40,089 nucleotides of DNA from contig WFRY01000158.1 in the NCBI GenBank assembly GCA_015486315.1, positions 1 through 40,089 on the forward strand. Direction: 5' to 3'. The position numbers were made by a program, and so were the translations under genes. Shown piece by piece: positions 1-20,117 of this stretch (positions within the stretch are counted from its first letter, which is position 1; each line of letters opens with the position of its first letter). The notes under the pieces are model-generated. The model ran no database searches. It had not been told where the DNA came from and worked only from the letters and a program-made list of their open reading frames with translations. This stretch comes from Desulfobulbaceae bacterium. Lineage in GTDB: Bacteria; Desulfobacterota; Desulfobulbia; Desulfobulbales; Desulfobulbaceae.

Positions 1-2586
1 CTGAAAGGGGCCGAGTATGAGGCAAGGGACATGCCGATATTTCAGGAGAAATACCTGACCGGTCCTACCTACAACGATTACCGTCACTTTCTCCTGGCCT
101 TTGAGCTGGAGCGACGTTTTTTCACCCGGAACGACCAGGGCAACATCCAGAAAATCCGCAACCTGGCCATTACTCTACAACAGCATGACCACAACTTCAA
201 ACCGCTGCGTGACGCTGTCCACGGTCGGATTGCGGCCTCCCTGATCCCGCTGCTGGCCCATTACCGTGACAAATTGCCGTCAGCAAAGAAAGAAGAAAAA
301 AAACAAATCTCCGAGTTGATGGCGGACATCGAACAACTCACCTCACTGGACGAGTCCATCATCGGACCGCAGATCAACGAACTCTCAGATCCAGGTATCA
401 GGGGACTGCTTAAAAACCTGATCAACCACAAGGATACCGATCCGGTCAAAAAGATCACCAGCCTGGCCGAACTCATGGTTCTATCCCGACATGAGGTGGC
501 GGGTAAAGATGCCTCTGCCTCGGACCGGCGTAAGCTGGTGGGGATCAACGTCACCGCAGCAGCAGTAATCCAGTCCATAGGCAGTAAGTACATGGATGAG
601 GGAGGCCCCAAAACAGTAAAGGAATCCCTGCAGCTGCTGCGAGCCCTGGCCAACGCCACCTACGGTACCGGTCTGATCTCCGAGCGCGAGCGCAAGGCCA
701 TTTCCGAAGACTTTGATGAAATCCTGGCCAGAAACAGCTGGAAGCGAGCTGATCTCACGGCCGCACTCCACCAGGTGCAGGGAGCCATTGAGTGGTCCCA
801 TGCCGGAGCGGCGTTTGCCTTTGGCGAAGTCTGGCCCGCATGGAGCTACCTGATTCCGGATATTAAAAAAATCACCGACGACATCGTGCGCAGCTCCCCC
901 ATGCTGCTCTACGGCATGGCCCTGACCAGACTCGAAGACTCGGTCTCGGGCCGGGAAGACATCAGCCATGTCATCTTTGACAAGGAATTCACCAAGGGGG
1001 TACGGGCGCTGAACTCGGGTCTTGCCTTTGGCGACCTTGCCGTGGTCAAGATCGGTCAACAGTATGATCGCGACAAAATAATAGCCCTGCCCGATACCCC
1101 GGCCGACCTCGAACCTGCCGCCGGTATCATCACCCGCGGTGAGGGTAACGTGGTATCCCATGTGCAGCTGCTTGCCCGCGCCCTCGGCATTCCCAACGTG
1201 GTGGTTTCCAGCGCACCTTACGACGCCCTGAAAAACCATAACAACGACAAGGTGCTGTTCATTGTTACCCCGGGCGGACGGGTATACCTCAAGAGGGCAG
1301 CCGACATGACCGCTGAAGACAAGGCCATGTACAAAGAGTACACCCGCAGTCAGAAACGCACCGGCGACGGCAAAGTCTCAGGCAGCAAAAAACGACTCCA
1401 TATTGACCCCGACCAGCTGGACATCACCAACTGGCAACCCATTCCGCTGCAGGACCTGCGCCGCTCCGACTCCGGCCATAAGACCGGTCCCAAGGCAGCC
1501 TACCTGGGCGAACTCAAGCACCTGTTTCCCGATCATGTAGCCCGTGGTGTTGCCGTACCCTTTGCAGCCTATTACAAGTTTTACAAGAGTGCAAAACTCA
1601 TAGTACCCGGGAAGCTCAAGGGTAAGCATATTGCTAAAGAGGGACAGCCTCTCGACGAATTTGCCAAGGAAACCTATGCAGAATTTTTCGGCAAAATGAT
1701 CCCGGCAGGAACCAGCGATGCCAAACTTGCCGCCTGGATTAAGCCGCGCCTGGAGGTAATCCGCTACACCATTGAAAACAATAAACTCTCTCCCGAACTG
1801 AAGGCGGCTATCCATGATAAGCTGCAAGAAGAAGGCCTGCTGAAAAAGGATGATCCCAACCAGACCGTGGGGCTGTTTGTCCGCAGTGATACCAACGTGG
1901 AAGACCAGCCCAACTTCAACGGTGCCGGCCTCAACCTGACCATCTTCAACCTGGGTTCGCTGGATGCTATTTACCAGGGACTGAAAAAGGTATGGGCCTC
2001 GCCCTTTACCTACCGTTCCTTTTCCTGGCGCCAGACCCTGATCGACGAACCGCTCTGGGTGCTGCCCTCGGTGGTCCTGCTGGAGACCATTCCCAGTGAG
2101 GCATCAGGCGTGCTCATCACCGCAGACATCAACACCGGCGATCAGTCCAAAATGCTGCTCGGCACCTCGGAAGGTGTCGGCGGTGCAGTGGACGGGACCC
2201 CAACCGAGACCCTGCTCTGGTCACCCGATGGTATCAAACTGGTCACAACCTTCAAGTCGCCCTGGCGCCGGTTGATTATCCCGGGCAGTGGTACTAAAAT
2301 CGTACCATCCACCGGTCGGGAATATGTCCTGAGCCCGGAAGAGGTCAAGGCGATTACCGAAGCCGGTCTGAAGATCCGGAAAAACTTCAAGCCCGCCCTG
2401 GATAAAAACGGTAAACCCAAGGCCTGGGATATTGAGTACGGGTTCTCCAACGGCAAGTTATGGCTCTTCCAGTGCCGTCCATTTATCGGCAATGAAGACT
2501 TCAGCAATATCCCGGCCCTGGCCGGTCTTGACAAAGAGATCAAGAAACATACCGGAACCATTACCCTTGAGGATTCCATCCGATGA
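1..2586 (+). CDS. PEP-utilising / water-dikinase-like protein, 5' end outside the window
   Basis: The reading frame is open from base 1, so the ATG at 31 is probably internal and the true N-terminus lies upstream. Residues are counted from base 31. A phosphohistidine swivelling domain lies near 355-410, with the G-x-x-x-S-H-V-x-x-x-A-R pattern and catalytic His377. It is followed at about 480-830 by a PPDK-type ATP-grasp domain (R618, E624-D625, and a C-terminal Q-C-R-P around 814-817). PEP synthase and PPDK have the ATP-grasp domain first; His domain before ATP-grasp is the order in glucan/phosphoglucan water dikinases. No C-terminal PEP-binding barrel is present. Inferred role: transfer of the ATP beta-phosphate to an unknown acceptor, possibly a glycan. 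The stop overlaps the next start by 4 bp (ATGA), so the two are translationally coupled. Family assignment is firm; substrate is unknown. Confidence 0.8.
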   Translation: MKGAEYEARDMPIFQEKYLTGPTYNDYRHFLLAFELERRFFTRNDQGNIQKIRNLAITLQQHDHNFKPLRDAVHGRIAASLIPLLAHYRDKLPSAKKEEKKQISELMADIEQLTSLDESIIGPQINELSDPGIRGLLKNLINHKDTDPVKKITSLAELMVLSRHEVAGKDASASDRRKLVGINVTAAAVIQSIGSKYMDEGGPKTVKESLQLLRALANATYGTGLISERERKAISEDFDEILARNSWKRADLTAALHQVQGAIEWSHAGAAFAFGEVWPAWSYLIPDIKKITDDIVRSSPMLLYGMALTRLEDSVSGREDISHVIFDKEFTKGVRALNSGLAFGDLAVVKIGQQYDRDKIIALPDTPADLEPAAGIITRGEGNVVSHVQLLARALGIPNVVVSSAPYDALKNHNNDKVLFIVTPGGRVYLKRAADMTAEDKAMYKEYTRSQKRTGDGKVSGSKKRLHIDPDQLDITNWQPIPLQDLRRSDSGHKTGPKAAYLGELKHLFPDHVARGVAVPFAAYYKFYKSAKLIVPGKLKGKHIAKEGQPLDEFAKETYAEFFGKMIPAGTSDAKLAAWIKPRLEVIRYTIENNKLSPELKAAIHDKLQEEGLLKKDDPNQTVGLFVRSDTNVEDQPNFNGAGLNLTIFNLGSLDAIYQGLKKVWASPFTYRSFSWRQTLIDEPLWVLPSVVLLETIPSEASGVLITADINTGDQSKMLLGTSEGVGGAVDGTPTETLLWSPDGIKLVTTFKSPWRRLIIPGSGTKIVPSTGREYVLSPEEVKAITEAGLKIRKNFKPALDKNGKPKAWDIEYGFSNGKLWLFQCRPFIGNEDFSNIPALAGLDKEIKKHTGTITLEDSIR

Positions 2587-4247
2587 TCGGCAAACAACTG
2601 TACATACTTGCCCTGCCGCTGCTTCTCCTGCTGGCCGGGACTGCATTTTCCCCGCCCGCCGTGCAGGCAGGCGGCGATCCATCCATAGTCTGGGACGGCA
2701 CCGAGATGCCGCAAGGCGTTTTATTTTACTGGTACGAGCCGTCTTTTTACACCGGCTTTGCCCCCCGGACTCAGGATCCAAGCCGGGCTCACATCCAGCT
2801 CTCACGCGGTAACCAGCTGCGGGTTACCCTGGTGCTTGGCCCAGACGAACTGGACAACTATGCCGATGACCTGGTGCTGCGTGCTGATACCTATCAGCAG
2901 CTCCTTGACAACAAAATTATTTCCCTGACCGTCAACAAGGAATACGAGCGCTTTACCTCCTCCATCGAGCAGAGCGGTACCAGGAAACTGGCTGCTTCCC
3001 GCAACTCCCTTGCTCCGGAGATCTATCGTGCAAAATCAACAGAACTGATCGCAACACTTAATCCGGGCCGGGTCTTTGTCATCCAAATGCCGCTTTCCCG
3101 GGTTCTGGAATCCTGGCAGCAGCACCTTGCCGCAATCACAGAGCAGGACCTGACCAATAAGGTTGTCCAGCTCGATGCAGCCAATGCCCTGCTGCCGGGC
3201 AGAATCAACCTGTATGCCCTGACGCCGGAACAACTCGAACTGCTGCAGGCCGCAGCCTCCATTGTCCGGCAGGGTGCAGGGACGGATAATCCCGCCTTTG
3301 CCGCCAAGGCAACCGAATTTCTCCAGGCGGCCACCGGGGGACATTACCCGGTCAAGGACGGTAACATCGAGGCAGTGGAGTTCACCCGCATCTACCCGGT
3401 AGGTACCCTGCAGGCCATGATCAAATACAAACAGTGGCGGCTGTCCTCCTTTGGAGTCACCGGCATCTGGCATCTTATCCCCCGCAAGATAGGCCGGGGC
3501 CAGTTAGGCATGGTGGATTATCTATCGCCCAATCCAGGATATGGTTTTATTCCACTGCTGCAATACCAGCATGCCACCGGCAAATTTTACAATGCCTTTC
3601 ACAATGCCGGAGTACGTACCCAGCTCAATGCGGCCCGCTTTGTTCCTAAAGAGTGGAAACATATTCCCGGCGAACGGAACCCCAAAAAGGCATACCAGAA
3701 TCTGTGGATTGCCAGCCGCGGGCCTGCATCACATGGCTGCACGCGACTGCCTTCCGGTGGTATGACCGAACTGCGTCACATGCTGCCCTCGGCAAGCGAC
3801 CTGCTGGAAAAAATAGCCACCTATCGAAACCTGCCCCAGTGCTATGAGCTGTTTGATATTGACGGTAACGGTACACCCGAGGTCATGGGTATCAAATATT
3901 ATCTTGCCTTTGCCGGCAAGGGTCACACCCCGACCAATGCCTATGCCCAAAACAACCGTAAGGATTTTTATGCCTGGCTGTATGGGGACAATGTCAGCTA
4001 CAACCCTGATGACAGTGCAGTAATCAAGGATACCCAGACCTGTCGCTTTGTCGGCAGAAAGGCCAAAGAGGCGCGCTCCTTTGCCAACCAGCCACTGTAC
4101 GAGGCCGAGTATTATCCAGATCAGATCCAGTTTTACAAGCTGCATCCAACCTCTTTCCAGACGCCGAAGGGATTTACCTTCAACCGTGAGCTGCGCCGGA
4201 TCGGGATCGGATACGATGCGGATATGAATAAGCTGTATCTCAAGTAA
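2583..4247 (+). CDS. Exported L,D-transpeptidase (YkuD)-like protein 1
   Basis: 554 residues with a Sec signal peptide (about 1-29: basic start, leucine-rich core, A-x-A-type site near VQAGG). The C-terminal half carries a YkuD-like signature: a His in A-F-H-N-A-G and, about 45 residues later, S-H-G-C-T-R with candidate nucleophile Cys386 (S383, H384, R388). YkuD enzymes cross-link peptidoglycan or attach proteins to it through an acyl-Cys intermediate. About 340 residues precede the motif, far longer than minimal YkuD proteins, and no LysM or PG_binding_1 domain is recognisable. Shortly after the Cys a D-I-D-G-N-G-x-x-E loop resembles a calcium-binding loop. The gene is coupled to the dikinase upstream and is paralogous along its length to the next gene. 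Transpeptidase activity is inferred from the motif only; a hydrolase or carboxypeptidase role is possible. Confidence 0.72.
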   Translation: MIGKQLYILALPLLLLLAGTAFSPPAVQAGGDPSIVWDGTEMPQGVLFYWYEPSFYTGFAPRTQDPSRAHIQLSRGNQLRVTLVLGPDELDNYADDLVLRADTYQQLLDNKIISLTVNKEYERFTSSIEQSGTRKLAASRNSLAPEIYRAKSTELIATLNPGRVFVIQMPLSRVLESWQQHLAAITEQDLTNKVVQLDAANALLPGRINLYALTPEQLELLQAAASIVRQGAGTDNPAFAAKATEFLQAATGGHYPVKDGNIEAVEFTRIYPVGTLQAMIKYKQWRLSSFGVTGIWHLIPRKIGRGQLGMVDYLSPNPGYGFIPLLQYQHATGKFYNAFHNAGVRTQLNAARFVPKEWKHIPGERNPKKAYQNLWIASRGPASHGCTRLPSGGMTELRHMLPSASDLLEKIATYRNLPQCYELFDIDGNGTPEVMGIKYYLAFAGKGHTPTNAYAQNNRKDFYAWLYGDNVSYNPDDSAVIKDTQTCRFVGRKAKEARSFANQPLYEAEYYPDQIQFYKLHPTSFQTPKGFTFNRELRRIGIGYDADMNKLYLK

Positions 4248-4363
4248 CCAGCATGGCTGGACCAAAATTCCGGACACAGCCACAATGAACGATGAAAGAA
4301 GCCACAAACATCATAGCCAGAGAAGGCACTTTCATATAAACAAAAACTGCAGTTATTAGACCC

Positions 4364-4403
4364 GGCCCGGTAGAGACAGCTCCAATGCTGATCCTGCCGG
4401 GCC
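4364..4403 (+). terminator. GC-rich hairpin ahead of the second L,D-transpeptidase gene
   Basis: Arms 4364-4373 and 4394-4403 pair over 10 bp with one G-U pair, around a 20-nt loop, and are followed by TTTCCCGTTT. The hairpin lies between the two paralogues and ends 23 bases before the chosen start. It could be a weak terminator or an attenuator within the operon. The T-run is short, so it is not a strong intrinsic terminator. Confidence 0.4.
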
Positions 4404-4426
4404 TTTCCCGTTTCACGGAGAACCAG

Positions 4427-6106
4427 ATGTCTTGTCTACATTACCGGGTAACCGGCCGAATCCTTCTGCTGCTTGTGTGCTGCATGGGTACAGGTATCCC
4501 TGTCGCAGCGCAGGAACCTGATATCCTCAAAATGACACCACCTGTCAATGAGGATACCTTTGACCGCCCTCTGGACCTGATAACCAGGAATACGCAAGAT
4601 CCGGACAGCCCCCCGGACCTGCGGGCCTGCTCCATCTTTTACCAGAAATACGAACCCGCCTTTTATACCGGATTTGCTCCCCGCAGCCGGGACCCGAAAC
4701 GACTGCACCTCCATGTAGGCCGGGGCAACCAGTTGCGGGCGACCCTGGTCCTGTCGGATGAGGTTCTGGAGGCATATCTGCGTGATCTGCGGGCCCGCTA
4801 CACGACCTATCGGACCATGATCGACAGGGGAAAACTGAAACTCACCCAGAATTCCGCCTTTGAAGCATTTGAGCAGCAGGTTAATAAATTTGCCGAAGCA
4901 GAAACAGCAGAGCCCAGAATGGCCCGGGAAGATATCATCAGGCGTAATCTTCTTATTATGACCCATCTCAATCCAGACCGTATTTTTCATATCAACACTC
5001 CTGTGGATATGGTTATCCAGCACTGGCTCGATTTTTTAACACCCGCCGACCTTGAAAAAACAGACCGTAACCGCAAACTGGCCATTATCAACGAGATGCT
5101 GCCCACCCGCCTCTGGTTGACCACCCTGGACAAAAAAACTGCCACTGATCTCAACGCCCTTATCCAGCTGGCCGCAGACAGGAAGATCAGCAATGAACTT
5201 GCAGGCAGCTATCTGTCCCTGCTGGACGAGATAACAGGTGGTATGTACCCAAGGAAAAACAACAAATTCAACTTTGTAGAGTTTACGGCAATCTATCCCA
5301 TCGGTACCTTTAACGGCTACACAACCTGCACGGGCGGGCAAAAGACCCCCCTGTATCCAACCCCCGGAAAATGGACCTTAACCACCCACCAGCGGAGCAA
5401 AACCGTGGATCACATTCCGGAGATATCCATCTACTCATGGTTTCCCTGGATTCCCTACATGCATGTGGGCAAAAAACTGCATAACTCCTTCCACACCCTG
5501 TGGTGGCGAATGGAGCATGCAAAGACGGACTTTCTCCCGGAAGAGTTAAGAAAACCGGCAGTCAAAAGCCGAGAGGGTAAGGACTATCGGTATGTATGGC
5601 TGCTGTCCCGTGGACCAATGTCCCATGGATGCACGCATGTCAACGGCGGTCATATTCTGGAACTGCGCCAACTGCTCCCCTCAAGTGAAAAGAAAATCTA
5701 TGATGTTGCCTTCTTTCTTAATAAGTCCTGCCTGTTTGACGTCTTTGACATAGACGGTGACCTCAAACCGGAGGTCATGGGCGTGCGGTATTATGTCGCC
5801 TACACATTGAAAGATAAAAAACCGGGAAAACTGCGGGCCCCCATGGAGCGACGCCCTTATTATAAATGGCTGTACGGCGGTGCCCTGAAATATAATCCGG
5901 ACGGTCAGGGATATTTCAACACTCTCCGGGACGGCCATTTTATCGGCAAACTTGCCGTGGCAGGGCAGGAGTATGACAATATCCCTCTGTATGAAGCTGA
6001 AATGGAACCATTCAGGCTCCAGTTTTTTGCAATGAAGAGTATAAAAGAAATTCCAAAGATCAGAAAACTCCGCCAGGCTGGAGAGGATTATTCCGAAAAA
6101 AAATAA
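4427..6106 (+). CDS. Exported L,D-transpeptidase (YkuD)-like protein 2
   Basis: 559 residues from the ATG at 4427, chosen because GGAG at 4417-4420 sits 6 bases upstream and a signal peptide follows at once (basic start, LLLLV core, A-A-Q cleavage region). An in-frame ATG at 4385 would put a polar stretch before the signal and lies inside a hairpin. It is paralogous to the preceding protein: the shared N-terminal block has a Y-E-P-A-F-Y-T-G-F-A-P-R motif, and the C-terminal catalytic block has S-F-H followed by S-H-G-C-T-H with Cys402. The residue after C-T is His rather than the usual Arg, so this copy may have altered activity. A D-I-D-G loop follows the catalytic region, as in paralogue 1. 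The pair most likely arose by tandem duplication. The substrate cannot be told from sequence. Confidence 0.7.
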   Translation: MSCLHYRVTGRILLLLVCCMGTGIPVAAQEPDILKMTPPVNEDTFDRPLDLITRNTQDPDSPPDLRACSIFYQKYEPAFYTGFAPRSRDPKRLHLHVGRGNQLRATLVLSDEVLEAYLRDLRARYTTYRTMIDRGKLKLTQNSAFEAFEQQVNKFAEAETAEPRMAREDIIRRNLLIMTHLNPDRIFHINTPVDMVIQHWLDFLTPADLEKTDRNRKLAIINEMLPTRLWLTTLDKKTATDLNALIQLAADRKISNELAGSYLSLLDEITGGMYPRKNNKFNFVEFTAIYPIGTFNGYTTCTGGQKTPLYPTPGKWTLTTHQRSKTVDHIPEISIYSWFPWIPYMHVGKKLHNSFHTLWWRMEHAKTDFLPEELRKPAVKSREGKDYRYVWLLSRGPMSHGCTHVNGGHILELRQLLPSSEKKIYDVAFFLNKSCLFDVFDIDGDLKPEVMGVRYYVAYTLKDKKPGKLRAPMERRPYYKWLYGGALKYNPDGQGYFNTLRDGHFIGKLAVAGQEYDNIPLYEAEMEPFRLQFFAMKSIKEIPKIRKLRQAGEDYSEKK

Positions 6107-17218: not shown

Positions 17219-18571
17219 ATGAACAACCGGACCCACACCTCTGTTCCTCTTGCCGAGCGGATGCGCCCCACTACCCTGGCCGACTTTATCGGCCAGGAAC
17301 ACCTGATCGGCAGGGGAAGACTCCTCAGCGAGCTTATCGACCAGGGTAAAATTCCGTCACTTCTGCTCTGGGGGCCGCCCGGTTCCGGTAAAACCACCAT
17401 GGCCACAATACTGGCCCACTCTATCCAGGCAGATTTCATCTTTTTTTCCGCCGTCCTATCCGGCGTAAAGGAGATCAGGAAAATTGTTCAGAAGGCAGAG
17501 GATAAACAGGCAACAACAGATAGCCCAACCCTGCTCTTTGTCGACGAAATACACCGGTTTAATAAAAGCCAGCAGGATGCCTTTCTGCCGCATGTGGAGA
17601 GCGGTCTCCTCACGCTGATCGGGGCAACCACGGAAAACCCCTCCTTTCAGGTCATCGCTCCCCTGCTCTCACGCTGCCAGGTCCTGCTCCTGAAGCCCCT
17701 GGACCCGGAAGACATAAAGATACTTCTCCTGCGGGCGCTTGCAGACGATAACCAGGGCCTGGGCGGCCAGGGACTTGAGGTCGACGAGCAGGCTCTAACC
17801 ATGCTGGCAGGCGGGGTGGATGGGGATTGCAGAAGGGCATTGAACTGTCTGGAGACCTCGGCAATGCTGGCTCTGCAAGGCAGTGATCAGCAATCATGCA
17901 CCATCACTGCACAGCTGGTCCGCGAGGCCATGCAGGAACGAACCCTGCAATATGATCAGGCAGGAGAAGAGCATTACAACCTGATTTCCGCCCTGCACAA
18001 GAGCCTGCGCGACAGCGATCCGGACGGTGCCTGCTACTGGCTGGGACGAATGCTTGCCGGTGGCGAAGACCCCCTCTATATTGCCCGTCGCCTGATCCGT
18101 TTTGCCTCTGAAGATATCGGCATTGCCGATCCCCGGGCACTTGAGGTGGCAATCAGCTGCCGACAGGCATACCATATGTTAGGCTCACCGGAAGGTGAAC
18201 TTGCCCTGCATCAGGCTGCAGCCTACCTTGCCACTGCCCCCAAGAGCAATGCCCTGTACATGATGGAAAAAACCATCAAAAAAGAGATCAAACGATCCGG
18301 AACCCTGCCGGTCCCCTTGCATCTGCGCAATGCACCGACTAAGCTCATGAAAAATATCGGCTATGGAAAAAACTACCGGTATGCCCACGACAGCCGTGAC
18401 GGACTGGTGGCCCAGGAACACCTACCGGAAAAGCTGTCAGGTAAAATTTTTTACCGGCCGACCGACCGTGGCTACGAGGCGGTTATTCTGGATCGATTAA
18501 CCAAATGGCGTAAAATCCTTAAACAAAGGGCACAGGAACAAAAAAATGCTGAACAAAAAAATACTGCCTGA
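17219..18571 (+). CDS. rarA: Replication-associated recombination protein A (AAA+ ATPase)
   Basis: 450 residues, the usual RarA/MgsA/WRNIP1 length. The N-terminus has the conserved P-L-A-E-R-M-R-P and G-Q-E-H-L. Walker A is G-P-P-G-S-G-K-T-T at 52-60, and Walker B is L-L-F-V-D-E-I-H at 105-112, followed by R-F-N-K-S-Q-Q-D. The helical and tetramerisation C-terminal region is complete. RarA acts at stalled forks in the cytoplasm with SSB and RecA. No earlier in-frame start exists after the stop at 17177, so 17219 is the first candidate. The last 26 bases overlap the next gene, implying co-transcription. Confidence 0.92.
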
Positions 18572-20117
18572 TTTGCTGTCTGCAGCCCTGCTGCTGTTAC
18601 TGATCACACCTCATCCACTGAAGGCTGCTGAATTTCTGCTCTTTTACTCAAATGACGTCCATGGCGAGACAGAGCCCTGCGGCTGAAAATCAAATCAGCT
18701 GGGCGGTCTGTCCAGAAAAGGATTTCAGATAAAAAACATTGCAGCCGCTGAAAAACTTCCCTACCTGTTTGTGGACAGCGGTGCGTTGCTCTTCAAGCAG
18801 AGTAGCATTCGGCCGGGACAACAGAAGCAGGAAACCCTCACTGCCCGCGGAATTGCCCAAGCCATGCAGGCCATGAACTGCCGAGCAGTCGGCATAGCGC
18901 CCCGGGACCTGGCAGGCGGGATTGACCTGCTCAAAGAAATTCAGGACAAGCAGAACCTGAACTGGCTCTCCATGAATCTGGTTGACCCGAAAACACAACA
19001 ACCAATCTTCATCCCCTCCATGCATGTTGTGGTTGATGGTACAGGTATTACCATCCTTGGTCTGACTGATAACCAGGCTGACAGGGGAAAAGACGCAAAC
19101 TACTCTATCCTGCCGTGGCAGGAAGTATTGCCGGAGGCTATTGCCCGCACTGCCGGCAGCACGGATATGGTCATCCTGCTCTCTAACTACCCGGAAAAGA
19201 TCAATAATGAAATTGCAGGCACAATTGATGGCATTGACCTGATCCTGCAATCCGGCCACAGTACCTCTAATAAGCCGCCAAACAAGATAAAAAACACCTT
19301 ACTGGCCCAGACTGGGGCCCGGGGAAAATATCTGGGCCTGATGCATGTAAACTGGACAGAGAACGGCCAGTGGGGAGAAAATATTTCCGACCGGATACGG
19401 GCAGAACAAAACCGGCTTGACCGAATCAACTGGCAGATCGGCCGGATGGAAAAGAGAAGCCGAGATAAAAACCTGGAGAATGATAAACGTTACAAACAAT
19501 TAACCATGGAAAAAGACCTGGCCAATAAAAAAATTGCTGCTTTACAAAAGGCAAAAGAACAGGCCACCGGTGAACCATGCAGTTTTACGAACCAATTTAT
19601 AGGCCTGAAATCTTCCATGCCGGAAGACCGGGAAATTCAGGCCATCATCGACCAGACCACCCTGGAAGTCAACAGGCTCAACCGTAAACGGGTCCATACT
19701 TCAGCCAGGCAGCAAAACTCCGTACTTTCCACTCTGGCCGGCTGGCAGCAATGCCGACAATGTCATCCAAAACAAGTTAGCTTCTGGCAGACAACAGACC
19801 ATGCAGGGGCCTGGCAGACTCTGAAACAGGATAATCAGCAGTTTAATGAAGACTGCCTGCTCTGCCATGTTACCCTGCCATACTATGACGCCGACAGGGT
19901 CAGAGCTGAAAACCTGCTCCTCCAGCTTCCGGCATCACTGAACACCGTAGGATGTGAAGCCTGCCATGGTCCGGCAGCCGCCCACAGCAAAGACCCGGAG
20001 GTCGCTCAAACAATCCTGCCTAACGAAAAAACCTGCCTGCAATGCCATACTCCGGACCATGACGACAACTTTGTCTTTTCGGACAAATTGGGAAAAATAC
20101 GCTGCCCCAGAGGATAG
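18546..20117 (+). CDS. Selenocysteine-containing metallophosphatase-cytochrome c fusion
   Basis: 523 residues if the in-frame TGA at 18684-18686 is decoded as Sec47. ATG 18546 has AGGA 8 bases upstream and starts a signal peptide (about 1-28). The frame then runs N-D-V-H-G-E-T-E-P-C-G-[TGA]-K-S-N-Q-L-G-G-L without interruption. 5'-nucleotidase/UshA-like relatives usually have Cys at the Sec position (E-P-C-G-C). A hairpin 18699-18715 (5-bp stem, 7-base loop with G at its second position, 17 bases after the UGA) fits a bacterial SECIS. Downstream are a metallophosphatase-like region, a coiled coil (about 285-345) and a cytochrome c554-like domain with four C-x-x-C-H motifs (403, 437, 470, 497). 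It is periplasmic and probably redox-active. If the UGA were a stop, the 5' fragment would be only 46 residues. Confidence 0.8.
18687..18715 (+). promoter_or_regulatory. Candidate bacterial SECIS element
   Basis: Stem 18699-18703 with 18711-18715 (last pair G-U), loop 18704-18710 starting C-G-G. The loop begins 17 bases after the UGA, inside the accepted bacterial range. It lies in the coding region, as expected for SelB-dependent insertion. Confidence 0.6.

Follow-up and report, generated by a model that had tools for sequence, protein, structure and literature searches.

Does the in-frame UGA at 18684 in this contig of a Desulfobulbaceae bacterium, of sulfate-reducer type, encode selenocysteine (Sec), and if so, what kind of protein carries it? 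The window, i.e. the whole stretch of DNA analysed here (40,089 nucleotides, contig WFRY01000158.1 of assembly GCA_015486315.1), comes from a fragmented metagenome bin of 485 contigs, 89% complete and with 6% contamination. A sequence-only reading of the window had proposed a Sec residue in a metallophosphatase-cytochrome fusion. Standard ORF finding puts the start of the same gene at an internal GTG (18771). We examined the frame, its RNA signal, the decoding machinery of the host genome, the relatives of the gene and the predicted fold of its product.

A frame crossed by a single UGA

In the read-through translation, the TGA at 18684-18686 is the sole interruption of a frame running from ATG 18546 to the stop codon at 20115-20117 (Table 1). 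The product has 523 residues, with U47 in the motif E-P-C-G-U (PCGU at residues 44-47). The sequence-only reading had followed this frame through the TGA and described it as conserved on both sides, a claim confirmed by two comparisons: identity to 25 relatives is 33-67% over the whole length, and the protein scores 618.2 bits against the curated NCBIfam model NF041198, "UshA-like (seleno)protein" (cut-off 275), with residues 21-512 aligned to positions 15-519 of a 519-position profile. All 26 relatives in A1 match the same profile. The expected layout, a signal peptide before the UGA and four heme motifs after it, also fits: the hydrophobic N-terminus resembles a signal peptide by eye, and CXXCH motifs begin at residues 403, 437, 470 and 497.

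Table 1. Features of the selenoprotein gene and its surroundings (positions in the window)
Feature	Position	Strand	Details and basis
RarA/MgsA-type AAA+ ATPase gene	17219..18571	+	PF12002, 215 bits; 3' end overlaps selenoprotein gene start by 26 bases
UshA-like PCGU selenoprotein gene	18546..20117	+	523 aa, Sec at 47; stop codon 20115-20117
N-terminal hydrophobic segment, likely signal peptide (~residues 1-28)	18546..18629	+	by eye; model helix 6-18; variable in relatives
N-terminal domain, 5'-nucleotidase/SoxB (calcineurin-like) fold, metal site lost	18624..19380 (approximate)	+	VIA-align; ligand counts
Remnant phosphatase metal motif I, D-V-H (D37, H39)	18654..18662	+	alignment to 3ivd; not conserved in family
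Cys45-Gly46-Sec47 motif	18678..18686	+	Sec codon TGA 18684-18686; CG(C/U) in 60/60 homologues (partly built in by collection patterns)
bSECIS hairpin	18699..18715	+	6-bp stem, 5-nt loop GGUCU; fold, covariation, conservation
Heme c motif 1, CRQCH (C403-H407)	19752..19766	+	invariant in relatives; PF13435
Heme c motif 2, CLLCH (C437-H441)	19854..19868	+	invariant in relatives
Heme c motif 3, CEACH (C470-H474)	19953..19967	+	invariant in relatives
Heme c motif 4, CLQCH (C497-H501)	20034..20048	+	invariant in relatives

The gene neighbourhood was compared across 25 loci. A RarA/MgsA family member lies near the selenoprotein gene in 19 of them, and this recurrent proximity, together with the overlap of the two genes in the window, suggests that they are co-transcribed here. 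Upstream the conserved neighbour is RarA/MgsA and downstream it is a DHH/DHHA2 phosphoesterase, while MazG and HAD proteins join them in part of the order; the neighbourhood offered no hint of function. A quick scan of the other window frames holding a single TGA found no C-G-type context. Elsewhere in the window, two long ORFs (554 and 573 aa, within 2583-6106) have no Pfam match at 1e-5.

A bSECIS hairpin conserved with the UGA

Downstream of the UGA, CUGGGC (18699-18704) pairs with GUCCAG (18710-18715) around the loop GGUCU (18705-18709), with a minimum free energy of -8.6 kcal/mol for 40 nt. The sequence-only reading had placed a hairpin with a G-containing loop 17 bases downstream of the UGA: the hairpin and its loop are there, but the distance needs correcting, as the stem starts 12 nt past the UGA (15 nt from its U) and the apical loop 18 nt past it. 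Published limits for bacterial SECIS (bSECIS) elements are a stem of 4-16 bp, a loop of 3-9 nt with G in the first two loop positions, a loop 16-37 nt after the UGA and an MFE at or below -7.5 (PMC13188914). The present hairpin lies within all of them, with 6 bp, 5 nt (GGUCU), 18 nt and -8.6 kcal/mol. An Rfam search of 18500-18900 returned chance matches only and no SECIS family. By folding energy the hairpin does not stand out (z -1.31; 25 of 200 shuffles were as good). Its support comes from comparison across relatives.

This comparison draws on structure, covariation and codon use. Of 42 distinct Sec sequences, 41 form a stem of 5 bp or more capped by a GG loop, and the exception (L076) keeps five of the six pairs with an A-C mismatch. 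Across 38 Sec sequences, the outer pair is either C-G or U-A and its neighbour either U-A or G-C; 96.9% of cells are paired, a level reached by none of 500 shuffles. In the codon alignment, where all 23 Sec relatives carry TGA at the Sec codon, the hairpin codons are frozen: Gly53 is GGC in 23/23, Leu55 is CTG in 23/23 and Ser56 is TCC in 21/21, while other conserved codons of the same genes have a mean entropy of 1.57 bits for Gly and 1.90 bits for Leu. Two distant Sec copies, L067 (1475-3019) and L092 (7995-9593), have Ala for Ser in the hairpin codons, and their stem is re-formed with at least 6 pairs and a shifted loop (GCUUGGC-GGUCUG-GCCAAGC and a close variant). All five inner stem pairs occur together in none of the 47 Cys homologues of the genome-contig set, and each of four close Cys copies has at least one of the six stem pairs broken. 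Conservation, covariation and agreement with the published limits thus uphold the identification of this hairpin as a bacterial SECIS element.

Selenocysteine machinery in the genome

A profile search of the bin itself identified selA (622 bits), selB (375 bits) and selD (350 bits), all over cut-off. The selD gene (G000:C204:2230-3174, L018) contains an in-frame TGA and is probably a selenoprotein gene itself. With the Rfam tRNA-Sec model, only ordinary tRNAs were found in this genome. A DNA search with selC of the same genus, however, recovered the first 60 bases of selC, TCA anticodon included, where contig C364 ends (3363-3422 of 3422); over 55 bases the fragment shares 87% identity with the same-genus gene, and it was missed by Rfam because it is cut by the contig end. 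The four genes by which Sec insertion was to be checked, selA, selB, selC and selD, are therefore all present, selC as a truncated 60-base start. The selC gene is present in the same-genus genomes G001, G002 and G004, and in 49 of the 57 genomes searched.

Sec and Cys forms among relatives

The NF041198 family was found over cut-off in 46 of these 57 genomes, nearly all copies having one TGA. In the Desulfobulbales the TGA sits at the same codon wherever inspected, and it occupies this codon in 42 distinct sequences of relatives whose frames are mostly otherwise open. Records of the family extend over Desulfobacterota, Myxococcota, Planctomycetota, Armatimonadota, Verrucomicrobiota, Nitrospirota and Bdellovibrionota. 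TGC or TGT stands at position 47 in homologues from Myxococcota, Planctomycetota and others, and in the genus g10. The alignment at this position therefore displays the Cys/Sec exchange that had been anticipated for the residue following C-G, the relatives examined having either TGA or TGC/TGT there. A miscalled TGC or TGT at 18684, the other outcome that would have spoken against Sec, does not fit a TGA common to dozens of independent assemblies.

Four Cys copies were examined, three from genus g10 (G013, G023 and G031) and one from G053, a genome that also holds another copy over cut-off with one TGA. The three g10 genomes (92-95% completeness) gave no match to selA, selB or selC, and the Cys protein of G023 is the same as that of Candidatus Electronema aureum. 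These observations suggest that Sec use has been lost by these cable bacteria (genus Candidatus Electronema; L022, L038, L046, L052). A quick tree of 67 rows requires four Sec/Cys changes, with the g10 and G053 Cys copies nested among Sec proteins, which fits Sec loss in these lines. G045 and G054 have the UGA form, selA and selC; at the stringent threshold applied, selB was not matched in them, probably owing to incomplete assembly. G011 has the Sec machinery and a below-cut-off family match without TGA.

Some records stand apart. Shorter relatives at G005:C2:307667-308734 and G025:C20:129006-130130 contain two in-frame TGAs, and may encode two Sec residues or be damaged genes. The protein of L074 (BNCN01000001.1), titled Comamonas sp. 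KCTC 72670, nests within Myxococcus sequences; this record is possibly mislabelled or contaminated.

A phosphatase fold that has lost its metal site, joined to four heme motifs

Pfam detects no phosphatase domain in the N-terminal part of the protein. An AlphaFold2 model built from 60 homologues (mean pLDDT 92.6) and compared from about residue 25 with VIA-align matches Escherichia coli UshA (1ush) at Z 32.7 over 277 residues and 2.1 A, CD73 at Z about 31 and SoxB (2wdc) at Z 31.1. The positions of the two-metal ligand set (D-x-H, G-D, G-N-H, H and G-H-x-(H/Q)) were placed by HMMER alignment to 3ivd. Of the eight ligand positions, the window protein retains only two, D37 and H39, which occur in 35 and 8 of the 60 homologues, respectively. 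It has Ala for the GD aspartate. None of the 60 homologues has the bridging Asn of GNH(E/D), and in most sequences 0 to 3 of the eight positions are left. The label "metallophosphatase" given by the sequence-only reading is accordingly right for the fold (UshA match, Z about 32) and wrong for the metal-binding residues, which are mostly gone. Cys45, Gly46, Cys/Sec47, Gly53 and Gly54 are invariant in the 60 homologues, many of whose Cys members were collected via patterns, one including PCGC, so that the invariance of CG(C/U) is partly built in and the loss of ligands is not.

The C-terminal part matches Cytochrome_C554 (PF13435, 46.3 bits over a cut-off of 20.8) and Cytochrome_C7 (PF14522). 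Its heme-motif arrangement is shared with Nitrosomonas cytochrome c554 (PF13435; match to 1bvb, E 8e-15), which unlike the window protein stands alone, without a UshA-like domain. Compared with the 5'-nucleotidases UshA and CD73, whose N-terminal fold it shares (Z about 31-33), the window protein lacks the metal ligands and has a tetraheme domain in place of their C-terminal domain. SoxB thiosulfohydrolase (TIGR04486) has the same fold and a weak sequence match (37.5 bits, far under the cut-off of 550), but its metal site is lost in the window protein. SoxB is not known to carry hemes.

Alternative explanations

Two alternatives deny Sec insertion altogether. If the TGA had arisen through faulty sequencing or assembly, or if a nonsense mutation had struck a Cys codon in a pseudogene, the fragmented state of the bin (485 contigs, 89% complete) would make such an error easier to accept; yet an accident of this kind is barely credible when the same TGA recurs at the same codon in 42 distinct relatives with mostly open frames, and when wobble positions downstream of it are frozen. 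Decoding of the UGA as some other amino acid (e.g. Trp, through an altered code or near-cognate read-through), or a true stop releasing a short regulatory peptide, found no support in this analysis. Translated with table 11, many of the window's long frames are unremarkable, it is Cys that replaces UGA in the homologues examined, the SECIS is specific to UGA copies, and the UGA form occurs in genomes with Sec machinery, all of which makes these readings very improbable. Sec insertion at UGA 18684 and membership in NF041198, on the strength of the sequence comparisons, are by contrast close to certain.

The remaining alternatives concern what the Sec residue does. An active metallophosphatase or nucleotidase, with Sec and hemes as accessories, would account for the fold match to UshA, CD73 and SoxB (Z about 30-33) and for the retained D37 and H39, but with only two of eight ligand positions left, Ala for the GD aspartate and no bridging Asn in any of the 60 homologues, it is improbable. 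A role of Sec47/Cys45 as a metal or cofactor ligand, or as a binding site for selenium or a heavy metal, deserves more weight, since soft metals could be held by a C-x-U pair placed in a fold whose metal site has degenerated. We still consider it unlikely: there are no extra conserved ligands near Cys45/Sec47 except Gly53-Gly54, and a CxU motif in one chain with a tetraheme domain would fit redox chemistry better. A redox role for Cys45-Sec47 is the probable one, and for Sec insertion, family membership and redox role taken together we put the probability at about 0.85.

Comparative evidence thus shows UGA 18684 to be a Sec codon, served by SelA, SelB, SelC and SelD and directed by the bSECIS 12 to 29 nt downstream, in the gene for a probably secreted protein with a 5'-nucleotidase-type fold that has lost its two-metal site, followed by a tetraheme c554-like domain. 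On the preferred reading, Cys45 and Sec47 would form a reversible selenenylsulfide/thiol-selenolate pair near the former phosphatase site. Electrons would then pass between this pair and the four hemes (the AlphaFold2 model having been built without hemes), an exchange that would make the protein a periplasmic oxidoreductase and not a hydrolase. As a guess, its substrate might be a sulfur compound, by analogy only with the SoxB-like fold and with sulfur-metabolising hosts.

Family context and implications

The family itself is known. It was reported in the 2008 Global Ocean Sampling survey as "COG0737, UshA-like", with the motif CxU, 76 selenoproteins and 92 Cys homologues (PMC2398784), listed again in a 2022 review (PMC9312934), and entered as NF041198, CxU, in a 2026 review (PMC13188914). 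By its score, its P-C-G-(U/C) motif and its C-terminal c-type heme domain, the window protein is an ordinary member of NF041198 (UshA_like_PCGU), with the same PCGU motif, the same tetraheme C-terminus and nothing of note to set it apart. NF049981, UshA-like (seleno)protein family 2, has a related N-terminal domain that the window protein matches at 34.9 bits, below the cut-off of 140, and its listed motif is CxxU, not CxU (PMC13188914). The window protein is therefore a clear addition to a known selenoprotein family and not a discovery. The literature we found assigns no function to NF041198, which it lists without further comment. The apparent replacement of the metal site by a Cys-Gly-Sec/Cys centre may be unreported: it is absent from the same literature, which is no proof of novelty.

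The selenoprotein call matters chiefly for annotation, as a gene begun at GTG 18771 is left without its signal peptide and its Cys-Gly-Sec motif. By switching from Sec to Cys, the cable-bacterium genus allows the two forms to be compared as they occur in nature. More tentatively, and at somewhat less than even odds, the whole CG(C/U) family may represent an undescribed type of periplasmic oxidoreductase, in which a phosphatase fold has exchanged its two-metal site for a Cys-Gly-Cys/Sec centre wired to a tetraheme cytochrome. The redox reading, if true, would provide a function class for an orphan family of wide distribution whose name is still that of a phosphatase.
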